A DNA stretch of 64,000 bases from Fibrobacter sp. UWR4 (GCF_003149045.1 NZ_QGDU01000009.1:1-64000); one strand, 5' to 3'. Positions 33,985 to 49,004 are shown, numbered from the stretch's first letter. Notes: a model not told the origin generated them from the letters alone. Numbers and translations are program-made.

Positions 33985-34692
33985 ATGGCAGAAGATCAGA
34001 ACTTAGATGAATTGACCGAAGAATCTGCGGAACTTCCTAAAGTTGAAAGTCAGGAAGATCTTGCACGTATTATCCAGGCCCTGGTTTTTGCATCCCCCGA
34101 TGTAGTGACCCTGAAGAAGCTCCGTGAAATTTTGGGGGACTTCCTGGATGCACGTTTGGTGTCCGATGCCCTGATCGCAGCCAATGATTCCTTGAACAAA
34201 ATCAATTCTCCTTTCGAAATTGTGGAACAGGCTGGTGGCTATCGTTTCCGTACTCGAGCCAAATATTATCCTTGGGTCCGCAAACTGTTCCCGGAAGTGA
34301 ATGCCCGCCGCTTGAGCCAGGCAGCCCTTGAAACTCTGGCTGTAATCGCTTACCAGCAGCCCATTACCAAGGCTGCCATTGAACAGGTCCGTGGCGTGTC
34401 TTCCGTGGATGGTCCCATTCGTAATTTGCTGGATAAGAAGTTTATCGCTTTGGGTTCCCGCGCAGAAACAGTGGGTAACCCCTACACTTATGTAACAACT
34501 CAGGAATTCATGAAGTACTTCGGTATCAATCGCATTCCCGAAGATTTGCCCCGTCTCCGTGAATTCAGTGAACTTCTGGAAGCCGGCGCTCTGGTACCTC
34601 AGTATGCCAAGCCCGAATCTGTTGTGGTTGAAGAACCTGTGGAACCGGAAGAAAACCCGGATCAGGTTGAACTTTCTATGGGAGACCTGTAA
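33985..34692 (+). CDS. scpB: Segregation and condensation protein B
   Basis: A 235-residue winged-helix protein of the SMC-ScpAB condensin. It shows LSQAALETLAVIAYQQPITKA and the following EQVRGVSSVDGPIRNLL, which are typical. The last ~35 residues are a Glu/Pro-rich tail. Its TAA overlaps the mutS ATG by one base, implying coupled translation. No scpA or smc nearby. Confidence 0.95.
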   Translation: MAEDQNLDELTEESAELPKVESQEDLARIIQALVFASPDVVTLKKLREILGDFLDARLVSDALIAANDSLNKINSPFEIVEQAGGYRFRTRAKYYPWVRKLFPEVNARRLSQAALETLAVIAYQQPITKAAIEQVRGVSSVDGPIRNLLDKKFIALGSRAETVGNPYTYVTTQEFMKYFGINRIPEDLPRLREFSELLEAGALVPQYAKPESVVVEEPVEPEENPDQVELSMGDL

Positions 34693-37334
34693 TGGCTTGT
34701 ACTCCTTTAATGCAGCAGTATTACGATATCAAGGCTCAGAATCCAGGCTGCATTTTGTTCTTTAGAATGGGCGACTTCTTCGAGTTGTTTGAAGATGATG
34801 CTGTAATCGCCTCCAAAATTTTAGGTATTACACTCACAAGCCGCAATAACGGCGCATCCGGTGCTACGCCTCTTTGCGGATTCCCGCACCACGCCGCGGA
34901 ACGTTACATTCCCAAGATGGTTGCCGCTGGTTACCGCGTGGCCATCTGCGAACAGGTGGAAGACCCCAAGCTTGCCAAGGGTATCGTCAAGCGTGACATT
35001 GTGGAAATCATCAGCGCCGGTACCGCCATGAACGAAGCCAACCTGGACGCCAAGGAAGCAAATTACCTTTGCGCCTACGTCCCGTCTGCCGCAGAAAAAA
35101 ATGCCGAAGGCAAGGGCGCGGAACTTGCAGCCTTCGCTATCGCTGATGTGACTACGGGTTACCTGGCTACCAGCAAGAGTTCCGTTCAGGCATTTGAATG
35201 TGAATTCTGCCGTCGCATGCCTAAGGAAATTGTTGTTCCCGAAGGAACCAAGATTCCCGATGGCGTCATGGACTTGATCAAGTCCGAAAACATCTTGATT
35301 ACAGAACTTCCTGCCTTCCAGTTTGGGGAAGAAGCTGCCAAGGACACGCTTTTCAACCACTTCAAGGTGGAAGCCTTGGATGGCCTCGGTCTGGATGGCC
35401 GCACCGAAGAAACTTCCGTGACGGGTGCCTTGCTGCAGTACCTCATGTACCAGAAAAAATCTGAACTGAGCCACTTTACGGCTCTGGAGATTTTGAATCT
35501 GGACGACTACATGACACTGGATCCGTCCACCTTGCGCAATCTGGAACTGGTGCGTCCGTTGAATGCCGACGACATCAGCAGCACCCTCTGTTATGTGCTG
35601 GACTTTACCGTCACTGCCATGGGTGGCCGTACTTTGAAGGATTGGGTGAGCCATCCTTTGATTTCTGTGGATCGCATTAAGGCTCGCGAAGAAGCCGTCG
35701 ATGAACTGGTAAATAACCCGGTGGCCCTTGATGAACTGAAGGAATCCCTCACTTCCATTCTGGATATGGAACGTTTGATGGGACGCGTAGGTTCTGGTCG
35801 CGCCAACGCTCGAGACCTTGCTGGAATGGGCCGCTCCCTGGCTCAGGCATCCAAGGTGGCCGATGTTCTGGAAGGATTGCAGTCGCCCATCTTTGAACCC
35901 ATGCGTGAAGCACTCGTCCGCGCTCAGGGTAGGGGAGAGGAACTTCTTAGTCAATTTAATGATGACCTGCCTTTGACTGTTCGTGAAGGCGGAATGATTC
36001 GCGAAGGCGCCAATGCAGAACTGGATGCCATGAATGCCGATATCAAGGATCGTCGCCAGTGGATTGCTTCTTTGGAAACCCGCGAAAAGGAACGTCTGGG
36101 AATTCCTAGCCTTAAAGTGGGCTACAACAAGGTGTTCGGTTACTATATCGAGGTGACCCGCGCCGCCATGGCCAAGGCTACGAACCCCATTCCTGATGAG
36201 TATATTCGTAAACAGACCACGGTGAACGCTGAACGCTACATCACTCCGGAAATGAAGGAATGTGAATCCGTCATCAGCAATGCCGAAGTGAATATTCACG
36301 CTCTGGAATACAAGATTTTCTCTGAACTCCGCGACCGCGTCAACTCCTGGCGCGCAGAACTTCAGGAAATTGCCAACGCCATTGCCCGCGTTGATACGCT
36401 GTACAGCTTTGCTCGTGCAGCTCGCAAGTACAACTACGTCTGCCCCGAAGTTTTCGAAGGCTCCGGCATTGAAATCAAGGGTGGTTTCCATCCTGTGATT
36501 GTGGCGGTGAATCCGGATCTAGACTTCATCAGCAATGATGTGAAGTTGTCGCCCGAGGCCACCCGACTGATGCTGATTACAGGCCCTAATATGGCTGGTA
36601 AATCCACTTACCTGCGTCAGACTGGCTTAATCGTTTTGATGGCGCAAATCGGCTGCTTCGTGCCTGCGGAATCTGCCCGCATTGGCGTTGTGGACCGCAT
36701 CTTTACCCGCGTTGGCGCCAGCGACCGCCTAAGCCGCGGCCTCTCTACTTTCATGGTGGAAATGATCGAGACGGCAAACATCTTGCGTAACGCAACGGCT
36801 CACAGCCTTGTGCTTCTGGACGAAATTGGCCGCGGTACCAGTACCTTCGACGGCCTCTCCATTGCCTGGGCCATCGTAGAGACTTTGCACGACGAACCGG
36901 CCCGCGCTGCCTTGACGCTATTCGCAACCCACTACCACGAATTGACGGGCCTGGTGGAAGACCTTGAGCATGCCGGAAACTATCAGGTGGCAGTTCAGGA
37001 AAAAGGCGACAAGCTGCTGTTCCTCCACAAGATTCTTGAAGGGGCGTGCGACTCTAGCTATGGTATTCACGTGGCAGAAATGGCGGGGCTTCCCAACAAC
37101 GTGTTGCGCCGTGCCCGCAAGATCCTGATGCGTCTTGAAAAGCATAAGATCGACCCCAGCGACGAAGCCGCCAACAAGAAACTGAAGGAAAAGCCCCAGG
37201 TTGATTTGTTCGCTCCTCCTGATGAAAGCACCATGCTCCTGAAGGAAGAAATCCGCCGACTCCATCCCGAAGAAATGACCCCCATGCAGGCTCTCCAGAC
37301 CCTCATGGACCTGAAGGAAAACTACGGGAAATAG
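34692..37334 (+). CDS. mutS: DNA mismatch repair protein MutS
   Basis: An 880-residue MutS1-type protein. The mismatch-reading GxFxE motif is in RMGDFFELFED (~25-33). Domain I ends with CGFPHHAAERYIPKMV. The ATPase domain has GPNMAGKST (~631), the signature STFMVEMIETANIL and DEIGRGTSTFDG. The C-terminal ~60 residues carry the dimer/tetramer region (LHPEEMTPMQALQTLMDL). It starts within TAATG, directly coupled to scpB. Confidence 0.97.
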   Translation: MACTPLMQQYYDIKAQNPGCILFFRMGDFFELFEDDAVIASKILGITLTSRNNGASGATPLCGFPHHAAERYIPKMVAAGYRVAICEQVEDPKLAKGIVKRDIVEIISAGTAMNEANLDAKEANYLCAYVPSAAEKNAEGKGAELAAFAIADVTTGYLATSKSSVQAFECEFCRRMPKEIVVPEGTKIPDGVMDLIKSENILITELPAFQFGEEAAKDTLFNHFKVEALDGLGLDGRTEETSVTGALLQYLMYQKKSELSHFTALEILNLDDYMTLDPSTLRNLELVRPLNADDISSTLCYVLDFTVTAMGGRTLKDWVSHPLISVDRIKAREEAVDELVNNPVALDELKESLTSILDMERLMGRVGSGRANARDLAGMGRSLAQASKVADVLEGLQSPIFEPMREALVRAQGRGEELLSQFNDDLPLTVREGGMIREGANAELDAMNADIKDRRQWIASLETREKERLGIPSLKVGYNKVFGYYIEVTRAAMAKATNPIPDEYIRKQTTVNAERYITPEMKECESVISNAEVNIHALEYKIFSELRDRVNSWRAELQEIANAIARVDTLYSFARAARKYNYVCPEVFEGSGIEIKGGFHPVIVAVNPDLDFISNDVKLSPEATRLMLITGPNMAGKSTYLRQTGLIVLMAQIGCFVPAESARIGVVDRIFTRVGASDRLSRGLSTFMVEMIETANILRNATAHSLVLLDEIGRGTSTFDGLSIAWAIVETLHDEPARAALTLFATHYHELTGLVEDLEHAGNYQVAVQEKGDKLLFLHKILEGACDSSYGIHVAEMAGLPNNVLRRARKILMRLEKHKIDPSDEAANKKLKEKPQVDLFAPPDESTMLLKEEIRRLHPEEMTPMQALQTLMDLKENYGK

Positions 37335-37339
37335 TTGCT

Positions 37340-37516
37340 CTACCTCTGCGTTTTCAGCCAGTGGGCGAAAAAATAATCGTAAACCCGGTAACTGCCGGAT
37401 TCTTGCGTAACGAGTTGCTATGCAAGCAATCCTTTTAGCGCTGCCTGAACACTGCTGGCTGATACCAGGTTGTATTTCTTAACAAAGTCCGCAGAGGTCA
37501 CATTGTTTGTCGACAT
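37340..37516 (-). pseudogene. Relic of an AAA-type ATPase gene (C-terminal fragment)
   Basis: On the minus strand one frame reads TSADFVKKYNLVSASSVQA, ALKGLL, an in-frame TAG, then QLVTQESGSYRVYDYFFAHW. This is the C-terminal signature of the COG1672-type AAA ATPases with a winged helix and a DUF234-like end (usually ...LLEKDLVTQ...YRVYDRFF..WL). The rest of the gene upstream is missing, so it is a decayed remnant. Confidence 0.65.
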
Positions 37517-38016
37517 CTTTGATTTGGCAGGTTTTGCCCTGGGGTGTTGAACGCCTTATATACATTGTGTATGACTTCTCCAGCTATATTCTTGTTGTGC
37601 TTCGAAAAAAACTTCTCGCTTTGCTAATTCTGCAAAAAATGACAGTAAAAAATCAAAAAAACATACAAAGCGCATAATCTATGTCACATTTTGATTTGTA
37701 AAAAGGTCTTGGATAAACGAAATTTTACAAATTAACTTATATTTACCAGAGTGAGAATTTTTTGCTCAAAACTGGTATATGGGTATATGACTGGCGTTGC
37801 TTGTTGCATCGTTTTTTCCGTATTGCCCGTTCTTGCTAGTGCTAATATGTGCAGGGGGGGGGCTGGAGAGTTTGTTTGTAATCAGCTCCCTTGGTGTGCT
37901 AAATCTTTAAGAAAATCCGTAAATTTTAACCGCGTCGCAAATTCAGCGATGCCTTCTGTGGACCGCGTCTTGTCTTGACGTGGCCTTTTTTGCGTTTAAA
38001 AACAAGAGTAATACTT
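37517..38016. other. Intergenic region with a G9 tract and a short exported-like frame
   Basis: AT-rich sequence. A weak frame (GTG 37751 to 37978, or ATG at 37787) would give a short hydrophobic N-terminus (VACCIVFSVLPVLASA) and then a run of nine G (37854-37862). A terminator-like hairpin with T6 sits at about 37959-37990. I do not call a gene here with confidence. Confidence 0.35.
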
Positions 38017-39546
38017 ATGATGAAAAAAAGATTTTTTATAACTGCTCTAGGTTTAACGTTAGGGGCGGCATTCGCCCAGTCTCCGGCGGGCGAGTCGCCT
38101 GCGGAAATCCAATCCGCTTCCATCTTTGTGCAGGATCCTGCGATTTTTCACCAGCGACAGGCGGACTTGGAAAAGTTGAAGGCCTCCGTGGAGGGCAAGA
38201 ACGAGGGGCTTGATTCCCTGCTGGAGCGGACCAACCGCATTACCGCCATGAATGACCGCTGTTCATCCATCAGCATCAACGACGTGATGGATGACGAGTG
38301 CTGGACTTTTTACCGGGTGGAACTGCCCGCCTTCGAGGAACAGTACATGAAGGTCACCGGCGAGGTGCGGCTGGGCCACATGGAAATGGCCCGCGGGCTT
38401 GAAGATCGCAAGTTGCAGATTGATGCCTGTGCGGAAGCGCTATACAGTTTTGCAAGTTCCAAAGATCAGTTCCTGAACCTGGAAGGTGGCGTTTACCTGG
38501 AACCGCTTCGCAATGGTTTCCAGGCTAATCACGATTTTACCTTGCAGTACGAACCCAACCACCAGAAACATTCTTTCGAGATTGCTCAGAAGTGGGGCGA
38601 AACCTGCCGTGAAATGGTGGTTCGCCAGGATGGGGAAGGCTTTGCTCCCTTCTTCTTGGACGCCCTTGATAAATTGAATGGCGAACTGGCGGGTAACGGT
38701 TCGTTGGCAGTGTACAAGACAGATACGACCGTAGTGGGCAAGCCTACGCTCTATATGGATATTTCCAAGCCGGTACGAAGCGCCTACTATCTGAATGGTG
38801 TAAAGCTGTTCCACGCCCGAGTGAGTGGCGGGCCTGCAAGCGAAAGTCATCTGCGAATTGCTTTCGAGAACGGCAATGTCAAGGTGGATGGTGAAAATGT
38901 AGTCGTGAAACGCGGTGAAAAACTTCGCTTCAAGGGTTCCGTAGATTACCCGGAAAAGACCGCCAAGCTGAACGGTCGCTGGATCTGGGAAAACCAGGGC
39001 AACAACGATGGCGTTGACTTTGGCCCGGAAATTGACGAGGCCGCCCAGGACAGTATTTTTGCCTTGCAGGAGGCCGAGCGTCGTTCCGTTATCGAAAAGC
39101 GTCGCGGCGTTCGTTTCTCACCTTGGGTTGGTGTGTCTGCAGCATTCGCTCCCTTTAGCGACAAGCATTTTGCGGCCTTTGAGGTGGATGAGGACCAGCT
39201 GATGATTTTGCCGGACCTTGTGGCGACTGCCCGTGTCAAGCTCGGCTTTGGCGAAAATGCCGAATGGTTTGCTGCTGTCGGTGCCGGTGCCTATGTAGGT
39301 GCGGGTTTTGGAGATGGCTTGCAGCGAGTTTATTTTGCTCCTGTTGCTCAGCTTGAACTTGGCTACAAAATTTTCGGTGTCCGCGAAACGGCTGTCATCG
39401 CTATTCCAGAAAATGATTCCAAGGAATGGATGCAGTTCAAGACAGGCGCATTTGTAAACTTTGGAATGTTCGGTGTCGAAGCCGGTTTTGATATAATCAC
39501 GAACCTCGGCAACGGCGGCTACCTGACGCTGTACTGGAACATGTAA
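38017..39546 (+). CDS. Exported protein of unknown function
   Basis: A 509-residue protein with a signal peptide (MMKKRFFITALGLTLGAAFA, then QSPAG). The central part is acidic and probably helical, with no repeats that I recognise. Residues ~365-509 look like a small beta-barrel, with alternating Gly/aromatic strands (SPWVGVSAAFAPF, FAAVGAGAYVGAGFG, FKTGAFVNFGMFG) ending in YWNM, so it may sit in the outer membrane. It is 9 bases ahead of the first FISUMP lipoprotein gene. Confidence 0.6.
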   Translation: MMKKRFFITALGLTLGAAFAQSPAGESPAEIQSASIFVQDPAIFHQRQADLEKLKASVEGKNEGLDSLLERTNRITAMNDRCSSISINDVMDDECWTFYRVELPAFEEQYMKVTGEVRLGHMEMARGLEDRKLQIDACAEALYSFASSKDQFLNLEGGVYLEPLRNGFQANHDFTLQYEPNHQKHSFEIAQKWGETCREMVVRQDGEGFAPFFLDALDKLNGELAGNGSLAVYKTDTTVVGKPTLYMDISKPVRSAYYLNGVKLFHARVSGGPASESHLRIAFENGNVKVDGENVVVKRGEKLRFKGSVDYPEKTAKLNGRWIWENQGNNDGVDFGPEIDEAAQDSIFALQEAERRSVIEKRRGVRFSPWVGVSAAFAPFSDKHFAAFEVDEDQLMILPDLVATARVKLGFGENAEWFAAVGAGAYVGAGFGDGLQRVYFAPVAQLELGYKIFGVRETAVIAIPENDSKEWMQFKTGAFVNFGMFGVEAGFDIITNLGNGGYLTLYWNM

Positions 39547-39555
39547 GGAGGAATT

Positions 39556-40542
39556 ATGAAGTATTTAAGTGTCATTCTGAGCTCATTCCCTCGTGTCATT
39601 CTGAGCGAAGCGAAGAATCTAGCAGTCCTCCTTGCGGCAGCCTTTTTCCTTGCTTCCTGTTCTGTTTACGATAACTACAGCGAGGATTCTTACAATGCTT
39701 TCTGGGGCATTGCCGAAAATGACGTAAATTCCAGCTCTGCCGACGAAAAAGTTTCTAGTTCTGTAAATGAGGGGGTCTCTAGCAGTTCCAAGACCCCTGA
39801 TAAGGATGGTGAGTCTATCTCCAGCTCCAGCGTCAAGAAGGATGACTCGTCCAGTAGCAGCAAAAAAGACACCACCTATGTGGTAATCGTCAATCCGTCC
39901 AGCTCTTCGCAGAAGGTCGAATCTGCAGGAAGTTCCGCAGTTGACAATCCCGGCAGTTCTTCTTCCAAGGTCCCTGATCCGATAGAATCCAGTTCCTCTG
40001 CCGTAACATTCAGATGCGGCCTGGATAGCATTGTAGATTCTGAAGAGTATCTCGGTCGAAAATATGCAACGGTAAAGTATGGTTCCCAATGTTGGCTTGC
40101 GGAAAATTCCTACAGGGCTGTTGGCGAATCCAAGTGTTACAATGATGCACCGGAAAATTGCGAGATTTACGGTCGTCTGTACAATTTTGCCGATGCACAG
40201 TTCGCTTGCCCCGAGGGAACTCATCTGCCTTCCGAAGAAGAGTGGATTGCTTTGCAGACTACGGTTACTCGAGACAATGGCGGTCTGGATCTGAAGTCCA
40301 CTGAGACATGGTCAGCGAAGCCCGGACAGTCTGGCAGCAAATTTAGCGCCAAGGCCGCCGGCTACTATGATGCCGAAGAGGAAGAATTCGTTTCTCTGGG
40401 AGGCTTTGCCGGTTTCTGGAGTTCCACCGATGTAGGAGGCATGATGGCCACTTATATGTACCTGTCGTCATCGAACCAGAATTTTATCGATGGCTACAAG
40501 GAACAGTCTAATTTCTATTCGGTACGCTGCCTGAAAGATTAG
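39556..40542 (+). CDS. FISUMP-domain lipoprotein
   Basis: A 328-residue lipoprotein (lipobox LASC). Residues ~55-150 are a low-complexity Ser-rich linker (many SSSS runs), which in Fibrobacter spaces surface domains from the membrane. Residues ~155-328 are a Fibrobacter succinogenes major paralogous domain (YGSQCWLAEN, CPEGTHLPSEEEW, GFWSST, YSVRCLKD), a C-type-lectin-like fold. It lacks the variable repeat of the next gene. The codons for residues 5-25 come from a dispersed repeat (see 39569-39620). AAGGAGG precedes the ATG. Confidence 0.88.
   Translation: MKYLSVILSSFPRVILSEAKNLAVLLAAAFFLASCSVYDNYSEDSYNAFWGIAENDVNSSSADEKVSSSVNEGVSSSSKTPDKDGESISSSSVKKDDSSSSSKKDTTYVVIVNPSSSSQKVESAGSSAVDNPGSSSSKVPDPIESSSSAVTFRCGLDSIVDSEEYLGRKYATVKYGSQCWLAENSYRAVGESKCYNDAPENCEIYGRLYNFADAQFACPEGTHLPSEEEWIALQTTVTRDNGGLDLKSTETWSAKPGQSGSKFSAKAAGYYDAEEEEFVSLGGFAGFWSSTDVGGMMATYMYLSSSNQNFIDGYKEQSNFYSVRCLKD
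39569..39620 (+). repeat. Dispersed repeat inside a signal-peptide coding region
   Basis: Two copies of GTGTCATTCTGAGC (39569-39582 and 39593-39606), the second continuing GAAGCGAAGAATCT. Sequences of this type are common dispersed intergenic repeats in bacterial genomes. Here it is translated as VILS...VILSEAKNL between the start codon and the hydrophobic core. Confidence 0.75.
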
Positions 40543-40567
40543 ATGAAACATTTACAAACAAAACGAG

Positions 40568-43270
40568 ATGAAAATGAAAATTTTAAAAATTGCAGGATTT
40601 GCGATTCCTCTAACCTTGATTGCCTGTGGCGATTCCGGGACAACGGAAAATATTACCAATAATTATACCAGCGGGATGGAAATCGCAGAAAAGGTCTCGG
40701 ACCTGCCCAAGTGTACTACGGATAACGAAGGTGACCAGGTGTGGGTCAAGGAAAAGGGTGCTGCAAGCATTTGCGTGGATGGCAAGTGGAATGTTATCGG
40801 CGGATCCGGCGCTGCTGCAGATTTTGGTTGTGAGACTAAGAACCTTGCGGATGGTTCCGGTGTCGCCATCTACTGCGCAGGGGATTCCATTGGTGTTGTG
40901 CTGAACGGCAAAGATGGTGCCAAGGGTGATAAAGGTGACATCGGTGAAACCGGTGCCGCAGGTGCCGATGGCAAGGACGGCGTTGATGGCAAAGATGGTG
41001 CGCAAGGTTTGCAGGGTGAAAAAGGCGATGCCGGTAGCGACGGGATGCCGGGCATAGGCTGCAAGGTCGTTTCCCAGACGGAAGATGCTGTGACAATTCA
41101 GTGCGGTGATGACCTGTTTAGCATGAACCTGAACGGCGGTAGTGGGGAAGTTGTTGTTCCCGGTGAAGATGTAGTTTCTCTTGCGAAGTTGAGCGGTGTT
41201 TCCCAGAAAGGGCCGTTTATCAACGGCTCCACGGTGACGCTCTTTGAACTGGACGGTAGCCGTAGCCTGGTGCAGACCGGTCGCACCTTCGGTGGTGAAA
41301 TCATTACCGATGACGGTCGTTTTAGCGTGAACAACGTTTCCCTGAAGTCCAGCTATGTGCGCATGACCGCCAACGGTTTTTATCGCAACGAAGTCACTGG
41401 CAAGAACAGTACCGCTAGCATTGTTCTGAACGCCTATTCCGATTTGCAAGCCCGCAGCAGCGTGAACATCAACCTGCTGACCCACCTGGAATATTATCGT
41501 GTGGGCTACCTCATGGAAAACGGTCTGGAATCCACTATCAAGGCTTCCAAGAAACGCGCCCAGAAAGAAATCTTTGCCGCCTTCGGTATCGATAATGATG
41601 GCTTCGGCTATTCCGAAGATCTGGATGTATTTGGCGAAGGCGATCAGAATGCGGCACTGCTTGCCATGAGCATTTTGTTGCAGGGTGACCGCAGCGAAGC
41701 CGATCTAAGCGCCCTGCTTGCCAGCTTCGGTAAGGATATTGAGGAGGACGGAACCTGGGACGACAAGGCTACACGCGGCACCATCGCTAATTGGGCCGCC
41801 CTTCGCGATGGTGCAGGAAATTTCGGTGTATATCGTGGCTATGTGGAACGCTGGGACCTCGGCTCAGTACCTGAATTTGAAAAGTATCTGCGCAACTTCT
41901 GGAGCCGCGAATATGGTTTGGGCGTTTGTGGCAGCGACACTGTGCCCGTAGGCACCGTGAAGAACGCCACCAACAACAATGGCAAAGCAAGCAATGACTA
42001 CGCAGCAACATACACCAGTCAAACCAACAAGAATCGCTTCATCTGCGTGGATGCCGACAGCCTCAAGTGGCGCGAGGCGACCGACATCGAGAAGGATACC
42101 ATGGGCCTGAAGCATGGTGAACTCACCACTCATGAGCAGGCTTCAGTAATCAACGGTCAAATAAATACAGACTATGTCTATGTGTACGAGGGGAAACAGT
42201 ACCGTCGTGGAACTGACCTGGACAAGAACCTTGGTCTTGGAGGCTGCACTAAGGCCCGCGTGGATTCCGTATGGAAGAGTGGTTCCGCATGGTATACTTG
42301 CGTGGATACGATTGTCCCTAACTCTAAGTTGAATTCTCTTGGAATAATGACTGTTTGGCGCACCTCTACAGACATCGAAAAGGATACAATCCACTGGTCT
42401 ACTCTCAAGAGTAACTTTGATGGCGAGGTCAGCAAGGGACAGATTACAGACAACTACTACATCTACGAAAAGTCCAAAGGAGCCTGGCGCAATGCAACTC
42501 AGGTTGAATACGATACTTATGGTATTGAATGTTCTGCCGAAAAAATCGCTTCCACGATGAATGGCCTCATTAATACAACAAAGATTTACGCTTGTAACGG
42601 AACTGCCTGGGTGTTCAAACGCGACAATCCTCAGAATCATAAATTTGGAACAGTTGCAGATGTCCGTGACAATCAGGTATATTTAACAGTGACTATTGGT
42701 TCCCAGACCTGGATGGCAGAAAACTTGAACTACGACTACAACGAGGGAACTGCCAAGAGCTATTGCTATAGCAACAGCAGTGCCAACTGCGACGAGTATG
42801 GTCGTTTGTACCTGTGGTCGGCAGCCATGGACTCCGCGGCAGTCTTTAGCAATGCCGGAAAGGGTTGCGGTTATGGCACGACATGCGCAGCCGCTTCGAC
42901 AAGTTCAGCGACCTTGGTGAGAGGCGTCTGCCCCGAGGGCTGGCACCTGCCTAGCAACTCCGATTGGAGTATTCTGTGGACTGCTATTGGAGGAACCTCT
43001 ACCGCAGGAACCAAGCTGAAATCAACAAGCGATTGGAACAGCGGTGGCAATGGCGAAGATGCGTACGGTTTCTCCGTCCTTCCTGCTGGCCTCTACTACG
43101 ATGGTAGCTTCCGCAATGCTGGCTACTACGGGTACTTCTGGTCTTCTACTGAGAGCGATAGTAATAACGCCTACGGCAAGTACTTCCTCTACGATATCTC
43201 GGACGTGGACGAGCGCAACTACGGTAAGTACGACGGCTTTTCTGTCCGTTGCCTCCGCAACTCCAACTAG
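40568..43270 (+). CDS. DGR target: collagen-like/FISUMP surface lipoprotein
   Basis: A 900-residue lipoprotein (lipobox LIAC, Cys20). Residues ~112-163 hold 17 uninterrupted Gly-X-Y triplets (GKDGAKGDKGDIGETG and so on), a collagen-like stalk. Residues ~200-690 contain a carboxypeptidase-like or Ig-like region (AKLSGVSQKGPFINGSTVTL) and two or three Cys-rich repeats (DSLKWREATDIEKDT and similar). Residues ~691-900 are a FISUMP C-type-lectin-like domain (IGSQTWMAENLNYD, CPEGWHLPS, FWSST, GFSVRCLRN). The last 66 codons are the variable repeat VR, which matches the downstream template except at adenines. It is thus the diversified protein of the retroelement and should be displayed at the cell surface. 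Confidence 0.92.
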   Translation: MKMKILKIAGFAIPLTLIACGDSGTTENITNNYTSGMEIAEKVSDLPKCTTDNEGDQVWVKEKGAASICVDGKWNVIGGSGAAADFGCETKNLADGSGVAIYCAGDSIGVVLNGKDGAKGDKGDIGETGAAGADGKDGVDGKDGAQGLQGEKGDAGSDGMPGIGCKVVSQTEDAVTIQCGDDLFSMNLNGGSGEVVVPGEDVVSLAKLSGVSQKGPFINGSTVTLFELDGSRSLVQTGRTFGGEIITDDGRFSVNNVSLKSSYVRMTANGFYRNEVTGKNSTASIVLNAYSDLQARSSVNINLLTHLEYYRVGYLMENGLESTIKASKKRAQKEIFAAFGIDNDGFGYSEDLDVFGEGDQNAALLAMSILLQGDRSEADLSALLASFGKDIEEDGTWDDKATRGTIANWAALRDGAGNFGVYRGYVERWDLGSVPEFEKYLRNFWSREYGLGVCGSDTVPVGTVKNATNNNGKASNDYAATYTSQTNKNRFICVDADSLKWREATDIEKDTMGLKHGELTTHEQASVINGQINTDYVYVYEGKQYRRGTDLDKNLGLGGCTKARVDSVWKSGSAWYTCVDTIVPNSKLNSLGIMTVWRTSTDIEKDTIHWSTLKSNFDGEVSKGQITDNYYIYEKSKGAWRNATQVEYDTYGIECSAEKIASTMNGLINTTKIYACNGTAWVFKRDNPQNHKFGTVADVRDNQVYLTVTIGSQTWMAENLNYDYNEGTAKSYCYSNSSANCDEYGRLYLWSAAMDSAAVFSNAGKGCGYGTTCAAASTSSATLVRGVCPEGWHLPSNSDWSILWTAIGGTSTAGTKLKSTSDWNSGGNGEDAYGFSVLPAGLYYDGSFRNAGYYGYFWSSTESDSNNAYGKYFLYDISDVDERNYGKYDGFSVRCLRNSN
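43067..43264 (+). repeat. DGR variable repeat (VR)
   Basis: 198 bases at the 3' end of the target gene, ending 6 bases before the end of its stop codon. Ungapped alignment to the TR at 45348-45545 gives 27 mismatches, every one an adenine in the TR (13 to G, 10 to T, 4 to C). All hit the first or second base of AAY codons; 21 of 26 such codons are changed. The last ~30 bases are unchanged and correspond to the region used to start mutagenic homing in known DGRs. Confidence 0.96.
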
Positions 43271-43272
43271 GA

Positions 43273-43368
43273 GCCTGCCTCTAGGCAACCCCAAGCCGAA
43301 GGCAGGGGTTGCGCCGCCCCACCCCGTCGAGCCTTGCCGGGCGGGGTGGGGCGGCCGCGCGAAGCGCG
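43273..43368 (+). other. Three GC-rich hairpins directly downstream of VR
   Basis: Inverted repeats at 43285-43292/43305-43312 (8 bp), 43313-43326/43342-43355 (perfect 14 bp, 15-nt loop) and 43356-43360/43364-43368 (5 bp, 3-nt loop). In the Bordetella phage DGR a hairpin just after VR promotes target recognition; these are in the equivalent place. They lack T tracts, so they are poor terminators. Confidence 0.75.
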
Positions 43369-43411
43369 AATAAAATTTGTTTGCAAAATTTTGAAAAAAA
43401 GAATAAGTGTC

Positions 43412-44500
43412 GTGAAATCAAAAATTTTAACGGCAGATGACTTGGTTCTCCCTCTACTGGAGGCGTACTATCAAGCACGTCGCCATAAAAGGAACACGGT
43501 AAACCAGCTGCAGTTTGAACTAAGCCTGGAACAGTCTATCTATGATTTATCGCGAGAATTGTCTTCAAGAACGTATGATCTCAGGCCATCCATTTGCTTT
43601 ATCAACGAAACTCCTGTAAAACGCGAAATCATTGCAGCAAACTTTCGTGATAGGGTTGTGCACCATTTGCTGTGTAACTGGATTTGCCCCATATTCGACC
43701 GACAGTTCATTCATGATTGCTACAGCTGCCGTGTTGGCCGTGGAACCGATTTTGCCGTGAGCCGCGCAAAGTATTTTATGGTATCTGAAAGCCGTGATTT
43801 TACAAGGGAATGTTGGTCTTTGCGTCTTGACATTAGTGGTTTCTTTATGGGAATCCACCGGGATATCCTGTATCAGCTTTGTGTAGAGGGCTTGAGTCGT
43901 GGCAAGTGGGCGGGTGTTCCCGACAAGGACTTGTGCATGTTTCTTCTAAAAAAGTTTATCTACAATAATCCTTTGGATAACGCTATTTTTCGAAGTCCAC
44001 CAAGTGCTTGGAATGACCTTCCGTTAAATAAGAGCCTTCGAGGAACTTCAGTAAACTGTGGACTTCCCATCGGTAATCTTACCAGCCAGTGGTTTGGTAA
44101 TATCTACTTGAATAGATTGGACCAGTTTGTAAAGCATCAGCTGAAAATTCGCTGCTATGGCCGCTATGTTGATGATATGCTTCTGGTTCATCACGACAAG
44201 TCTGTTCTTTTAGAAGCAATCTTCAAGATTCGGGATTATCTTAAATCACGGTTGCATTTGAATCTAAATGAAAAGAAAACAAGGCTTCAACCTATACAGA
44301 AAGGTTTTCCTATGCTTGGAGCCTATATTCTGCCGTACCGAACTTATCCTGGCAGGCGTACGGTTAAAAACTTTGTAGAATGTGTAAAGAATCCTTGCCG
44401 TGATGAAGATAAGCAGAAAAGTAGAGTCCAAAGCTACCTGGGCTATATGGGGCATTATAACGCATATCGGCTTACCCAGTCTATTCAACAAGGAACATGA
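43412..44500 (+). CDS. DGR-type reverse transcriptase
   Basis: A 362-residue reverse transcriptase. RT motifs in order: CYSCRVGRGTDFAV (region 2), SLRLDISGFFMGI (catalytic Asp of motif A), GLPIGNLTSQWFGNIYLN (the I/LGxxxSQ motif 4 typical of DGR enzymes) and YGRYVDDMLLVH (YxDD catalytic pair). It lacks maturase and endonuclease domains, unlike group II introns. It should copy TR RNA into adenine-mutated cDNA. GTG 43412 is chosen: it is the first start beyond the hairpins. Its TGA overlaps the accessory gene by ATGA. Confidence 0.95.
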   Translation: MKSKILTADDLVLPLLEAYYQARRHKRNTVNQLQFELSLEQSIYDLSRELSSRTYDLRPSICFINETPVKREIIAANFRDRVVHHLLCNWICPIFDRQFIHDCYSCRVGRGTDFAVSRAKYFMVSESRDFTRECWSLRLDISGFFMGIHRDILYQLCVEGLSRGKWAGVPDKDLCMFLLKKFIYNNPLDNAIFRSPPSAWNDLPLNKSLRGTSVNCGLPIGNLTSQWFGNIYLNRLDQFVKHQLKIRCYGRYVDDMLLVHHDKSVLLEAIFKIRDYLKSRLHLNLNEKKTRLQPIQKGFPMLGAYILPYRTYPGRRTVKNFVECVKNPCRDEDKQKSRVQSYLGYMGHYNAYRLTQSIQQGT

Positions 44501-45219
44501 ATATGAAAATGTCTGAAATATATGCTTTGGAAGAAGCGAACAAATCCTCCATCTATCTTTATTTGGAAGGCTCGTTTTACAAGGCTTATGAAAGGTCTGC
44601 ATTTCGTTTTTGCAAGAGGTTTCGGGAATGCAAGGTAAGTGCTGTTCACAACTTGTCACTGGCTTGCGACATTGTACGCATTGGTTTCCCGAAAATTGCC
44701 TTGGATAAGTATATGGCTGTAGCCCAGTCGTTTGGGTATTCGGTAGAATGCCAAGACGAAAAGAGAATTGCCGTTCATGGGATTGAACCTTTGGAAGGAT
44801 TTTCTTCTTGGAAAAATGGTTGCGTGTCTAATGCCGTTAGGGCTAAAGAGCAAACTTTGCCTATTGTTAATGCTCAGGAGTCATTAAAATTGCGTCTTTA
44901 CCGCGAAGCTTATGACAATGCTGTGGCTCTTACAAATTTTACTTCTAGGCTGCACCGTAATTTTCGTTTTGGAGCTGGTGATTCCTTGCGAAATGAATCT
45001 CTGGAACTGGCGGTAAAACTACACGTGGCGTTTAAACGAGGTGAGTCTCTGGATGAACGGCAAATATTTTATGAGATAGAACAGATGCGCATTCGCACTC
45101 GCATAATGCATGATGTGAAGCAATTTGATAGTGGCGTGTGGAAAATGCTCAACGATCGTTTTGACAGAATGCAGAATTTACTAAGGTCGGAATCCTGTTG
45201 CTTTGATGTGCAGGAGTGA
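44497..45219 (+). CDS. DGR accessory protein: MutS-I-like domain plus Avd-like helical bundle
   Basis: A 240-residue basic protein. The C-terminal half (~128-235) resembles Avd, the four-helix RT partner of DGRs: FTSRLHRNFRFGAGDSLRNE and QIFYEIEQMRIRTRIMHDVK match its helices 1-3. The N-terminal half (~18-95) resembles domain I of MutS: IYLYLEGSFYKAYERSA aligns with LFFRMGDFFELFEDDA, and RIGFPKIALDKYMAVAQSFG with LCGFPHHAAERYIPKMVAAG of the mutS product in this window. The acidic mismatch-reading residue is not in the same context. It probably binds the RT and TR RNA. AAGGAA precedes ATG 44497, and it overlaps the RT gene by 4 bases. Confidence 0.82.
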   Translation: MNMKMSEIYALEEANKSSIYLYLEGSFYKAYERSAFRFCKRFRECKVSAVHNLSLACDIVRIGFPKIALDKYMAVAQSFGYSVECQDEKRIAVHGIEPLEGFSSWKNGCVSNAVRAKEQTLPIVNAQESLKLRLYREAYDNAVALTNFTSRLHRNFRFGAGDSLRNESLELAVKLHVAFKRGESLDERQIFYEIEQMRIRTRIMHDVKQFDSGVWKMLNDRFDRMQNLLRSESCCFDVQE

Positions 45220-45239
45220 ACCTCTGGAGTTGGGCGGCA

Positions 45240-45267
45240 TACTCGCTGCTGATATGCAGGGCGAGTA
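45240..45267 (+). ncRNA. Stem-loop in the leader of the DGR template RNA
   Basis: TACTCGCTGC pairs with GCAGGGCGAGTA around a 6-nt loop, about 80 bases before TR. It is probably part of the structured RNA around the TR that the RT and Avd recognise. No T run follows, so it is not a simple terminator. Confidence 0.45.
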
Positions 45268-45347
45268 GAGTTTGTCGGGAATGGTGAATCGCGGCTGTTG
45301 TCCGCTTTTGCTGTTTCCGCTGAAAGTTGCTGCGAAATTCTTGTAAG

Positions 45348-45545
45348 GGTTTCTCCGTCCTTCCTGCTGGCAACTACAACAATGGTAGCTTCAACAATGC
45401 TGGCAACAACGGGAACTTCTGGTCTTCTACTGAGAACAATAGTAATAACGCCTACAACAAGAACTTCAACTACAATAACTCGAACGTGAACGAGAACAAC
45501 AACAATAAGAACAACGGCTTTTCTGTCCGTTGCCTCCGCAACTCC
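45348..45545 (+). repeat. DGR template repeat (TR)
   Basis: 198 bases matching VR at all positions but 27. It holds 64 adenines, and most variable sites are AAC or AAT codons when read in the VR frame, the classic DGR template bias that allows many residues and never a stop. It lies downstream of the accessory gene and is not itself a gene, although one frame stays open through it. Confidence 0.95.
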
Positions 45546-45591
45546 TCTGGCAATCCGTTTGTAACAATGATGCCCCTAAAAAAGGAAAAAT

Positions 45592-46476
45592 ATGAGAAAG
45601 AAAACTCTACGGCTTGGGAATGGAAATGTTGTGAATGATACAAACGAGCGCTTTGAAAACGAAAAATATGTGGAATCAGAAGAGGATACATTATCTTCAT
45701 TGCAATTCAATCCTATAAAAGAAAAAGAAGATTTAAAAAAATTCTTTTTGAAAAAAGAGGCATATAGTAAATTTGTTAATGGGGAAAAGAATTACTATTT
45801 TTATTGGTTTACTACTTATGATAAACTAGAGTTACTCGTAAATAAGAAAACGTTAAAGCTAGGTTTTCCTCCAAAGTGGTATGATTATGTTGATAGAATT
45901 TTTATTGAAGCATATTCCAATGAAATTGAACTTGGAAAAAGAATTTATGCGTCTTGTATAACTACGCAAAAAACATCTTTAATGTGGCAAAATTATGCTT
46001 TCAAAGAGAATTCTGTACTGATTATTTTTAATGGTCGAAAACTTCTGGAACTTCTGGGTGAAAAAATTCTGTTTTACCCTGTTATGTATATACCCCATTT
46101 AGAAAAAAGAAAAAAACAGAAAATTCTTGTGCCAAATAAATTGCTTTACCCGTTTATAAAGCGATATTCATATCAAGATGAACGGGAATGGCGCATTATA
46201 TCTACAAAACAAAACTTGAGATTTAAGACAATTAAGGATCTGATTGAATCCGTCTCAATTAGTGACTTTGCCTATGAAAAAAAATTACTTGAGAGTAAGA
46301 ATCAGTCAGAGGCTAATTATCTTTTGATTGAAAAGCAAAAAGAGAGGTTTAAGAAAAAGGTTGAGAAACTTTGTGAAAAAATCTCTCCCCAAAAAAGATA
46401 CCTGCGAAATGACTGGACTTTTGTGAATAAGTCTGTTATTCGGAATTATTGTGCGGACTTAGGAGACTTATCATAA
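45592..46476 (+). CDS. DUF2971-like protein, AT-rich
   Basis: A 294-residue protein resembling DUF2971: YWFTTYDKLELLVNKKTLKLGFPPKW, split here as YWFTTYDKLELL and KLGFPPKW, then IYASCITTQ, SLMWQNYA and YSYQDEREWRII. Function of the family unknown. The gene is visibly richer in A and T than its neighbours, so it was probably acquired. AAAGGA precedes ATG 45592, which is 46 bases after TR; it could be transcribed with the TR RNA. Confidence 0.7.
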   Translation: MRKKTLRLGNGNVVNDTNERFENEKYVESEEDTLSSLQFNPIKEKEDLKKFFLKKEAYSKFVNGEKNYYFYWFTTYDKLELLVNKKTLKLGFPPKWYDYVDRIFIEAYSNEIELGKRIYASCITTQKTSLMWQNYAFKENSVLIIFNGRKLLELLGEKILFYPVMYIPHLEKRKKQKILVPNKLLYPFIKRYSYQDEREWRIISTKQNLRFKTIKDLIESVSISDFAYEKKLLESKNQSEANYLLIEKQKERFKKKVEKLCEKISPQKRYLRNDWTFVNKSVIRNYCADLGDLS

Positions 46477-46540
46477 TTTGCGAATAGAATTATGATCCCA
46501 ATACTGAACAAGGCTTTGGGGGCTTAAGCATAGCTTATAC

Positions 46541-46621
46541 ATGCTACGCGCGCATATAGTACGGCTCGGCAATGCCCGCTCGAGTAAACTCGGCGGTCGC
46601 TGCACTCGCCTTTTGTTATAT
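46541..46621 (+). repeat. ~75-80-bp repeat, copy 1
   Basis: Starts ATGCTACGCG, contains a shared CGGCTCGG core and ends CTCGCCTTTTGTTATAT, as does copy 2 at 46625-46698. The two are adjacent and diverge in the middle. Confidence 0.7.
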
Positions 46622-46624
46622 GGC

Positions 46625-46698
46625 ATGCTTCGCATGCATATACTGCGGCTCGGAAATATCCACGCAAGCGTGGCTACTTCTCTCGCCTTTTGTTATAT
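46625..46698 (+). repeat. ~75-80-bp repeat, copy 2
   Basis: See 46541-46621. The shared end TTATAT supplies the putative -10 of the next gene. Confidence 0.7.
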
Positions 46699-46705
46699 TT
46701 AAAAC

Positions 46706-48292
46706 ATGGCGTTAAAGAATTTTCCTATCGGCATTCAGGATTTTGCGAGCATTCGCAACGAAGGGTTCTTTTATGTAGATAAGACGGACCTTGTTTACAA
46801 GTTGACTCATACAAGCAAGTATTACTTCCTCAGCCGCCCTCGCCGTTTTGGAAAGTCCCTTTTGATTAGCACATTGCAATGCTATTTCGAAGGTCGCAAG
46901 GAACTGTTCACTGGCCTAGCCATGGAACGCCTGGAGACCGAGTGGAAAAAGTATCCGGTCATTCGGCTGGACTTGAGTACAGTCAAGTCAACAGACCAGG
47001 ACAAGTTTGCCGAGAACATGAGCTTGAATCTGGAGTCTTACGAAAAAGAGTATTGTTTGGACAAGACAACTAGCCAGGCATGGGGTGCAAGGCTTAGGCG
47101 TATTATTGAAGCTGCAAATAATCAGACAAAGTCGCAAGTCGTTGTCTTGGTTGATGAATACGATGCTCCCGTTCTTGAGGCTATGGGCGATGCGAAGGCG
47201 CTAGAACGCATCCGAATGCAGATGCGGGAACTTTACGCGCCCCTCAAGGCCCTTGGCGGCATGCTTCGTTTCGTGTTCCTCACGGGCGTCAGCAAGTTCA
47301 GTCAGCTCAGCATCTTTAGCGAACTGAACAACCTGAATGTCATTACCATGGATGACGACTATGCAGCCATCTGCGGCATCACCAAGGAAGAACTGCTGAC
47401 CCAGATGCAGCCCGAAATCCAGGCGCTCGCCGACAAGCAGAAAATGACCTACGACGAGGCTGTCGCAACTTTGCAGCGCCGATATGATGGTTACCACTTC
47501 AGCGAAAACTCACCGGATATCTACAATCCGTTTAGCTTGATAAACTCTTTAGGTAAACAGAATTTCTTAAACTATTGGTTTGCATCGGGTACGCCGACCA
47601 TGCTTGTGAAGGCCATGGCCCGTTATAAGCTGAGTCCCGAAGAATATGATCGTGGTTTTTCTGTTGCACAGAGAACTTTTGATGCTCCTACAGAAACCGC
47701 AGAGACTCCCATCCCGGTTTTATACCAAAGTGGATATTTGACCATCAAGGGTTACGAAAAGGATTCAGTACGTCCGTTCAAATTGCAGTTCCCCAACGAT
47801 GAAGTTCGTAATGGAATGCTGGATTTGCTGACGAATTCGTATGTGTCAAAAAATGATGAGGAAACCTCCGAGTTCTTGGACCACTTCGTGACGGCGATGA
47901 AGGCGTGTGACATTGAAACTGCGCTTACAGAAATGCGCGCGTTCATGGCGAGCATTCCCTACGACGCCGAAAAGCAGAACGAACATCATTATAGAACTAT
48001 TTTCTACCTGATATTCAGAATTGCGACGCCGTACCTTGTCCGTTGCGAGGAACGTACCGCCGCAGGCCGCGCCGACGCCGTGGTGGAAACCGCCGACGCT
48101 GTTTACGTATTTGAATTCAAACTTGATGCAAACGGTACTGCCGACGATGCCCTCAGACAAATCGACGACAAGGGGTATCTGGTGCCTTACACCGTGACCA
48201 AGACTGCCGACGGCTCCCCGAAAAAACTGTTCAAGATTGGCGTCGCCTTCGATGCGGAAAAACGCACCTTGGGTCAGTGGAAAATCGCATAG
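46706..48292 (+). CDS. AAA-ATPase-like and PD-(D/E)XK nuclease-like protein
   Basis: A 528-residue protein of the widespread AAA-ATPase_like (PF09820-type) plus DUF1703/PD-(D/E)XK (PF08011-type) family. It shows YFLSRPRRFGKSLLIST (Walker A, ~45-60), VVVLVDEYDAP (Walker B, ~145-155), a middle QRRYDGYHFS and a C-terminal GRADAVVETADAVYVFEFKL with the nuclease D, E and K. Function unknown. Such genes occur in many copies in gut and rumen bacteria. A TATATTTA motif ends 4 bases before the ATG and there is no ribosome binding site. Confidence 0.88.
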   Translation: MALKNFPIGIQDFASIRNEGFFYVDKTDLVYKLTHTSKYYFLSRPRRFGKSLLISTLQCYFEGRKELFTGLAMERLETEWKKYPVIRLDLSTVKSTDQDKFAENMSLNLESYEKEYCLDKTTSQAWGARLRRIIEAANNQTKSQVVVLVDEYDAPVLEAMGDAKALERIRMQMRELYAPLKALGGMLRFVFLTGVSKFSQLSIFSELNNLNVITMDDDYAAICGITKEELLTQMQPEIQALADKQKMTYDEAVATLQRRYDGYHFSENSPDIYNPFSLINSLGKQNFLNYWFASGTPTMLVKAMARYKLSPEEYDRGFSVAQRTFDAPTETAETPIPVLYQSGYLTIKGYEKDSVRPFKLQFPNDEVRNGMLDLLTNSYVSKNDEETSEFLDHFVTAMKACDIETALTEMRAFMASIPYDAEKQNEHHYRTIFYLIFRIATPYLVRCEERTAAGRADAVVETADAVYVFEFKLDANGTADDALRQIDDKGYLVPYTVTKTADGSPKKLFKIGVAFDAEKRTLGQWKIA

Positions 48293-48313
48293 TTTGTATT
48301 GTTGCTGTTCCCT

Positions 48314-48817
48314 ATGATCGACTTCGCTGCGTTACAAGACTTCGTTTTCGAGGATCGCGTTTATGATTCCGAAATCCACGGCTTGGCCCATTGGCGGCAA
48401 GTGGAGTTTAACGGACTGTTGCTTGCGAAAAAGACTAAGGCTGACATTACGGTGGTTCGCCTCTTTGCCTTGTTCCACGATTCCAAGCGGGACTTTGACG
48501 GATACGACGAAACTCACGGCGGCCGTGGTGCTGAATTCGCCAAGAAATGTCGTGAAGAAAAACGTTTTGAAATCACGGATGAACAGTTCGAGAAACTATA
48601 TCACGCCTGTAAGAACCACACTTCGGAAAGGCATAATGGCGACCCCACCATTGATACCTGCTACGACGCAGACCGCCTTGACCTGGGCCGCGTGGAAATT
48701 AATCTTGATCCGATGAAAATGGCTTCGCTTGCCGGAGCCTTCATTGCCGCACAGTCTCGCAAAGAAAATATCCCGCCTTGTAAAATGCGGGATTGGTTAA
48801 TGAAATTTGAGTTTTAA
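48314..48817 (+). CDS. HD-domain-like phosphohydrolase
   Basis: A 167-residue protein with the HD-superfamily pattern: HGLAHWRQVE, then LFALFHDSKRDFDG (the HD pair), HACKNHTS, and DTCYDADRLDLGRV with a late Asp. It could be a small metal-dependent phosphohydrolase acting on nucleotides; substrate unknown. ATG 48314 is preferred over TTG 48299. Just 21 bases after the ATPase gene. Confidence 0.75.
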   Translation: MIDFAALQDFVFEDRVYDSEIHGLAHWRQVEFNGLLLAKKTKADITVVRLFALFHDSKRDFDGYDETHGGRGAEFAKKCREEKRFEITDEQFEKLYHACKNHTSERHNGDPTIDTCYDADRLDLGRVEINLDPMKMASLAGAFIAAQSRKENIPPCKMRDWLMKFEF

Positions 48818-48820
48818 ATG

Positions 48821-48856
48821 AAAAAAGCACTGTTCTTTTGAACGGTGCTTTTCTCT
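48821..48856 (+). terminator. Rho-independent terminator
   Basis: AAGCACTGTTC / GAACGGTGCTT stem with TTTT loop, followed by TTCTCTT. Confidence 0.7.
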
Positions 48857-48891
48857 TGAAATATCTAGCGTTCTCTTGAATGCGAAAGACC

Positions 48892-49004
48892 TTTGTTGCA
48901 CTTCCTTGTCATATAGTTATTGAACTGAAGCGAGTCCGGCGAAGCCGGGTGAACGGAGTGAACCGAGCGGAAGGGCAATGACTATATGACTGCGTTGCAA
49001 CAAA
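48892..49004. repeat. Long imperfect inverted repeat between convergent genes
   Basis: Arms 48892-48922 and 48976-49004 pair over TTTGTTGCA and GTCATATAGT-ATTG with a few mismatches. The interior holds smaller hairpins (TCCGGCGAAGCCGG). It ends right at the ridA stop codon and may help stop transcription from both sides. Confidence 0.7.

Follow-up and report, generated by a model that had tools for sequence, protein, structure and literature searches.

Sequence evidence for a recently active diversity-generating retroelement with a fused MSL-Avd accessory protein in Fibrobacter sp. UWR4

The 64,000-nucleotide stretch of Fibrobacter sp. UWR4 DNA that was analysed (NZ_QGDU01000009.1:1-64000, termed the window) harbors an element that, judged by sequence comparison, is a real diversity-generating retroelement (DGR) and has recently been active. 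We put the probability at roughly 0.95 that it is a chromosomal, functional DGR that rewrites its variable repeat (VR) at adenines of a fixed template repeat (TR), through mechanistic steps that we infer. The original prediction of a complete DGR is supported, as every DGR component is present and intact, and the ORF map confirms that the open frames of a reverse transcriptase (RT) and an accessory protein lie between VR and TR. All of the following features are found on the plus strand.

40568..43270 (+): DGR target gene, 900 aa, lipoprotein-like (ORF; Pfam, TIGRFAM, predicted fold)
43067..43264 (+): VR, the target's last 66 codons before the final Asn and stop
43285..43312 (+): inverted repeat after VR with an 8-bp stem, at a site that matches the place of the BPP-1 target hairpin/cruciform
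43313..43355 (+): second inverted repeat, 16-bp and GC-rich, between VR and RT (sequence scan)
43412..44500 (+): DGR reverse transcriptase, ~362 aa (ORF, motifs LPIGNLTSQ and YVDD, structure matches)
44497..45219 (+): accessory protein, 240 aa, MSL-Avd fusion (ORF, profile and fold comparisons)
44497..44850 (+): MutS domain I-like half of the accessory, aa 1-118 (MutS_I E 0.006; Foldseek)
44872..45204 (+): Avd half of the accessory, aa 126-236, four-helix bundle (hhalign, VIA)
45220..45347 (+): leader of the presumed template RNA, from accessory to TR, strongly folded (MFE -47.5 kcal/mol, z -2.6)
45348..45545 (+): TR, with 0/198 differences from the sister genome G040

VR and TR align over 198 nt without a gap, at exactly the coordinates and length first proposed, and all 27 mismatches between them fall on adenines of TR. 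Adenine occupies 64 of the 198 TR positions, and the chance that 27 random mismatches would all be found there is ~6e-16, which confirms that the pattern lies beyond random drift. None of the 134 non-A sites of TR is changed in VR. The likeness ends abruptly on both sides of the repeat. Every mismatch is located at codon position 1 or 2 of the target frame, in which TR contains 26 AAC/AAT codons. At least 75% of TR/VR mismatches on TR adenines was taken as the mark of a DGR, and the window (27/27) and the sister genome (28/28) both lie at the upper end of this scale.

The comparison set comprised 80 species-level genomes of the genus, among which G040 carries the same cassette with 94.6% nucleotide identity over 42702-48762. 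The G040 TR is the same as that of the window over its whole length, while its VR departs from its own TR at 28 positions, exclusively at adenines, and from the window VR at 24 positions, again all at TR adenines. Just upstream of VR, the target diverges by ~15% between the two. Since TR is unchanged and the VR differences are confined to TR adenines, VR has been rewritten independently in both lineages since their split. An alignment in related strains had been proposed as a check, with an invariant VR or non-adenine changes counting against a DGR; in G040 neither is seen. In a related phage-borne group, elements likewise share identical TRs, and between their VRs 12 to 26 positions differ, without exception TR adenines. 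Taken as comparative evidence, these patterns point to past activity in mutagenic retrohoming.

Whether this activity continues is a separate matter, as the DGR may have worked until recently and be inactive in this lineage today, with genes that still look intact. Such a relic would fit with a template RNA spacer that is not recognisable after the rearranged TR, and with broken copies in relatives, in which the RT carries in-frame stops (L093 and L177) or the accessory is disrupted (L092). However, all ORFs of the window are intact, and decay would add non-adenine changes to VR, which are absent despite the divergence of the flanking target from G040. Together with the independent rewriting of the VRs after the species split, this makes a relic improbable.

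The RT starts at either GTG 43412 or TTG 43334, as its start codon is uncertain. It was assigned through the (I/V/L)GxxxSQ motif and a YxDD active site, which are intact as IGNLTSQ (the DGR SQ motif) and YVDD, so the DGR-type motifs first read from the sequence are borne out. The nearest solved relative is the BPP-1 DGR RT (8ub7, E 8e-32), followed at a distance of 24 orders of magnitude by a group II RT (E 7e-8). The RT matches a PHROG RT family with E 1e-87, and it falls in a cluster of RTs that are each accompanied by a TR/VR pair. That an RT of another class (group II intron, retron, or DRT defence RT) sits beside the repeat pair by chance is extremely unlikely on these grounds. Generic RT models of those classes do match weakly, but the class-specific NCBIfam RT models all remain far under their cut-offs (77 bits against 300 for the group II maturase model TIGR04416), and a search of 37000-49000 with Rfam yielded neither a group II intron nor any other RNA. 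A placement within group II introns or retrons, named at the outset as the outcome that would speak against a DGR, is not what these model and structure matches indicate.

The target protein carries an apparent lipobox (LIAC), has collagen-like repeats at aa 114-162 as well as repeated linker modules, and bears a FISUMP/C-type-lectin head at its C-terminal end (aa 708-897). Its matches include Pfam PF09603 (E 7e-34), Collagen (5e-8), and TIGR02145 (E 7e-56); a sequence search with FISUMP targets gave no solved-structure homologue. The predicted model of the last 200 residues (pLDDT 82) takes on a C-type-lectin fold, which VIA relates to the C-terminal domain of Lcl (Z 8.4), formylglycine-generating enzyme (Z 7.7), and BPP-1 Mtd (Z 7.5). 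VR lies within this predicted fold at the 3' end of the gene, one codon ahead of the stop, a placement that was used as a criterion for DGRs. The product would be a lineage-specific lectin tip with up to 28 variable residues, carried on a collagen-stalked surface lipoprotein.

Four DGR RTs are encoded in the genome, namely that of the window and those of C5 (74%), C27 (63%), and C3 (57%); among the genus genomes searched, no other has more than two. Each of the four DGRs has its own TR and FISUMP target, and the differences in the other three are adenine-biased as well (27/28, 19/19, and 13/15). The genome holds 93 FISUMP domain matches that could recombine, and the repeats might accordingly be read as FISUMP 3' ends that were duplicated and moulded by gene conversion among these domains and by positive selection on Asn codons, with no mutagenic retrohoming at all. 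This reading has next to no likelihood, as the adenine signature is repeated across this genome's four loci and the majority of related ones, TR is identical between species, and the repeats have a DGR RT and an Avd as neighbours. For practical purposes, it is refuted by the sister-genome, related-locus, and phage-element comparisons.

The C3 element belongs to a prophage, is located beside a Mu-like tail gene, and also occurs in the viral contig L183. The DGR of this prophage (L057, C3:124000-137833) is aimed at the FISUMP domain of a tail-region gene, which implies that host-surface and phage-tail lectins of one family are both diversified.

The start codon (ATG) of the accessory overlaps the RT stop codon. 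Its C-terminal half has the Avd fold, in agreement with the Avd-like accessory first noticed. Residues 126-236 align with stand-alone Avd proteins, which themselves match NF033474 (hhalign 99.6%, E 1.8e-24), and superimpose on BPP-1 Avd in 4dwl and 8ub7/8ub8 (VIA Z 14.2-14.7, rmsd 2.0-2.1); this segment belongs to the Avd family by both sequence and fold, and the accessory as a whole scores under the NF033474 cut-off. In the N-terminal half, the MutS_I model reaches 17.2 bits against a Pfam cut-off of 20.6. The same model is matched by 5 of 14 stand-alone MSL proteins (best E 1.1e-5), and Foldseek finds DNA-bound Taq MutS (1nne/1ewq, probability 1.00/0.99). When aligned with the host MutS, all 30 homologues keep the intercalating Phe that forms the mismatch wedge, and in all 30 the mismatch-contacting Glu of the F-x-E motif is replaced by K, Q, H, R, or N. 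In MutS, the Glu next to the wedge Phe reads the mismatch. On the strength of homologues and fold, the N-terminal half is MutS-I-like and not a mismatch-reading MutS. As a side observation, the host MutS gene itself (window 34692-37334) is located ~3 kb upstream of this DGR; the sister contig stops short of mutS, and the proximity is for now regarded as a coincidence.

With its MSL and Avd halves joined in one protein, the accessory is of a type known from DGRs (Avd, HRDC, or MSL). A profile built from the genome's four accessories finds single ORFs in Fibrobacterota and nine related viral contigs, and in many Bacteroidota two adjacent ORFs, one for the N-terminal and one for the C-terminal half. 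Of the 168 Fibrobacterota genomes, 28 contain an accessory match, in almost every case within a single frame, and the RTs of Fibrobacterota fall into one supported group (SH-aLRT 98). Three long-branched Bacteroidota loci in the tree also have MSL-Avd fusions, so the fusion possibly arose more than once. The name MSL (MutS-like) reportedly stems from a large DGR survey in NAR (2018), and to our knowledge the action of MSL proteins in DGRs is not known. MSL as a DGR accessory has been described (PMC10053308). The suggestion that target, accessory fusion, and layout may be undescribed holds in part: the open-access literature searched contained no MSL-Avd fusion that characterises a whole phylum, whereas DGRs as such, FISUMP targets, MSL accessories, and a TR located after the RT are already known.

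Where a TR can be detected in related loci, the order is VR-accessory-TR-RT in nearly every case. Only the window and G040 show VR-RT-accessory-TR, and in the tree they nest inside other cellular elements. Their order is therefore derived, the RT having moved to the front so that its stop now lies over the accessory start. A TR downstream of the RT corresponds to the known "group 2" order (PMC3521204).

In the proposed mechanism, an RNA of leader and TR would be bound by the RT together with a ring formed by the Avd half. The RT would then copy this template RNA, misincorporating opposite adenines, and the mutagenised cDNA would take the place of VR as far as the shared 3' end that adjoins the inverted repeat; this end would be the initiation-of-mutagenic-homing stretch (IMH). 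For the MutS-I half, the most likely role is nucleic-acid binding near Avd, to either an RNA/cDNA or a cDNA/target duplex; it would not select mismatches, given that it retains the intercalating Phe but not the mismatch-reading Glu. We tentatively suggest, as an idea that may well fail, that the Avd ring with its MutS-I wedges holds the cDNA/VR heteroduplex (or the RNA/cDNA hybrid) non-selectively and shields it from host mismatch repair. If true, heteroduplex protection would be a dedicated and previously unrecognised step of retrohoming in a large DGR class.

Instead of a general clamp, the MutS-I half could serve as a decoy at the cDNA/VR heteroduplex, where it would either block or recruit the mismatch repair of the host. 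The homology with MutS domain I would suit this role; heteroduplexes of this kind would, without a decoy, be expected targets of host mismatch repair; and the stand-alone MSL of Bacteroidota has a MutS-like C-terminal motif (TPLECLLFVSSLKKQL vs MTPMQALQTLMDLKENYG in the host MutS). The fused Fibrobacterota protein, however, is devoid of this motif, and the replacement of the mismatch-reading Glu in all members also argues against a decoy. For the BPP-1 system in E. coli, deletion of mutS left repair of an 18-nt insertion reporter unchanged, a reporter that does not test substitutions (PMC12875486). A decoy is possible but doubtful.

The cDNA replacement of the preferred mechanism would end close to the first inverted repeat, whose 8-bp GC stem starts 20 bp past VR. 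The structured region after VR has a z of -5.8, and such 8-bp stems have a background frequency of ~1%. In phage DGRs, a hairpin/cruciform of 7-10 bp with a GRNA loop follows 4-34 bp after VR (PMC3240598); the window hairpin differs from these in having a 12-nt loop in place of the GRNA tetraloop. In BPP-1, a structured spacer of ~140 nt 3' of TR primes cDNA synthesis (PMC12875486), and no obvious counterpart was found in the sequence after the window TR, because poorly conserved sequence follows the rearranged TR. The 46 nt after TR diverge by 11% from the sister genome; what the window has instead is the folded leader upstream of TR.

A conserved leader RNA, at first read from the identity of leader and TR between the window and G040, was dropped as a candidate. 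The leader is indeed identical in the two genomes, but it lies within a low-divergence tract in which the accessory differs at only 3 of 604 positions, and the leaders of a second species pair show 8% divergence. When leaders were placed in a multiple alignment, no clear conservation appeared outside TR, and a "GAGTAGA" motif common to the leaders of cellular loci is suggestive only. Scans for promoters and terminators stayed at or below chance. In the standard-order loci L057, L089, L090, L103, L105, and L184, terminator-like GC hairpins stand directly 3' of TR, which is in line with a separately transcribed template RNA; no terminator-like hairpin was found after the window TR. In L055 (near 8250, -) and L088, the leader before TR encodes a "QLDLF" peptide that resembles beta-clamp-binding sequences, and in L055 this peptide is in frame with TR. 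In several loci of the VR-accessory-TR-RT order, TR and RT form one open frame (L055 6850-8313 (-), L057 8093-9259) that has no intervening ATG, so the RT may be translated from a start within TR.

Compared with the BPP-1 DGR (bRT, Avd, TR, and VR in Mtd; 4DWL, 8UB7-8UBE, 1YU1), the window likewise has an RT and an Avd fold, and the two share adenine-specific TR/VR differences, a C-type-lectin target, and an inverted repeat just after VR. They differ in that the window Avd is fused to a MutS-I domain, the order is VR-RT-accessory-TR instead of VR-avd-TR-RT, the ~140-nt spacer 3' of TR is not recognisable, and the target is a cellular lipoprotein instead of a tail fibre. The MSL DGRs of Bacteroidota (e.g. 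Rikenella and Alistipes loci) are closer, with the same RT neighbourhood, a MutS-I-like protein plus Avd, and in some cases FISUMP-type targets; MSL and Avd are two adjacent genes there and one polypeptide in Fibrobacterota. DGR targets with Fib_succ_major (FISUMP) domains were reported in 2014 from human gut metagenome scaffolds and have VR in the same domain and a lipoprotein context (PMC4159848), whereas the window target is a long, collagen-stalked Fibrobacter protein. In the Legionella adhesin Lcl, a collagen-like stalk likewise bears an end domain with the fold of the target head (8Q4E), which is an architectural match only. Several independent DGRs in one bacterial genome are also known from Thiohalocapsa PB-PSB1, whose nine DGR loci target NACHT/STAND sensor proteins (PMC10907252), in contrast to the surface lectins and the phage tail-region gene targeted here.

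The natural MSL-Avd fusion indicates that both halves work in one complex, and it offers a single 240-aa protein whose MutS-like half can be deleted or point-mutated. At this locus, a fibre-degrading gut bacterium would diversify a surface lectin on a collagen stalk, and its prophage would do likewise with a related lectin of the tail region. How hypermutation contributes to attachment and to contact with phages can hence be tested directly in a bacterium of the herbivore gut.

Further observations concern the surroundings and the other elements. The window DGR is flanked by a large duplicated module (37975-40542 and 46706-48292) with counterparts around the C27 DGR (L056 2456-5095 and 11276-12856). 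Its genes ahead of the target code for an exported protein of 523 aa and for a FISUMP lipoprotein that lacks a VR, and the gene after the cassette codes for an AAA-ATPase/PDDEXK protein. In the C27 element, VR (L056 7975-8163) contains six extra bases in an AAC run relative to TR (9221-9403), as would arise from RT slippage, and its first 147 nt are substituted at adenines only. A FISUMP gene on contig C75 (L027 1691-1921) differs from the C5 TR (L055) by 39 substitutions, 24 of which are at TR adenines (P 2e-5), and by a 3-nt insertion; it is likely an old remote target of this other DGR. One TR serves several VRs in other Fibrobacter genomes (L085, L088), and at the C36 locus of G029 three FISUMP targets accompany a single TR.
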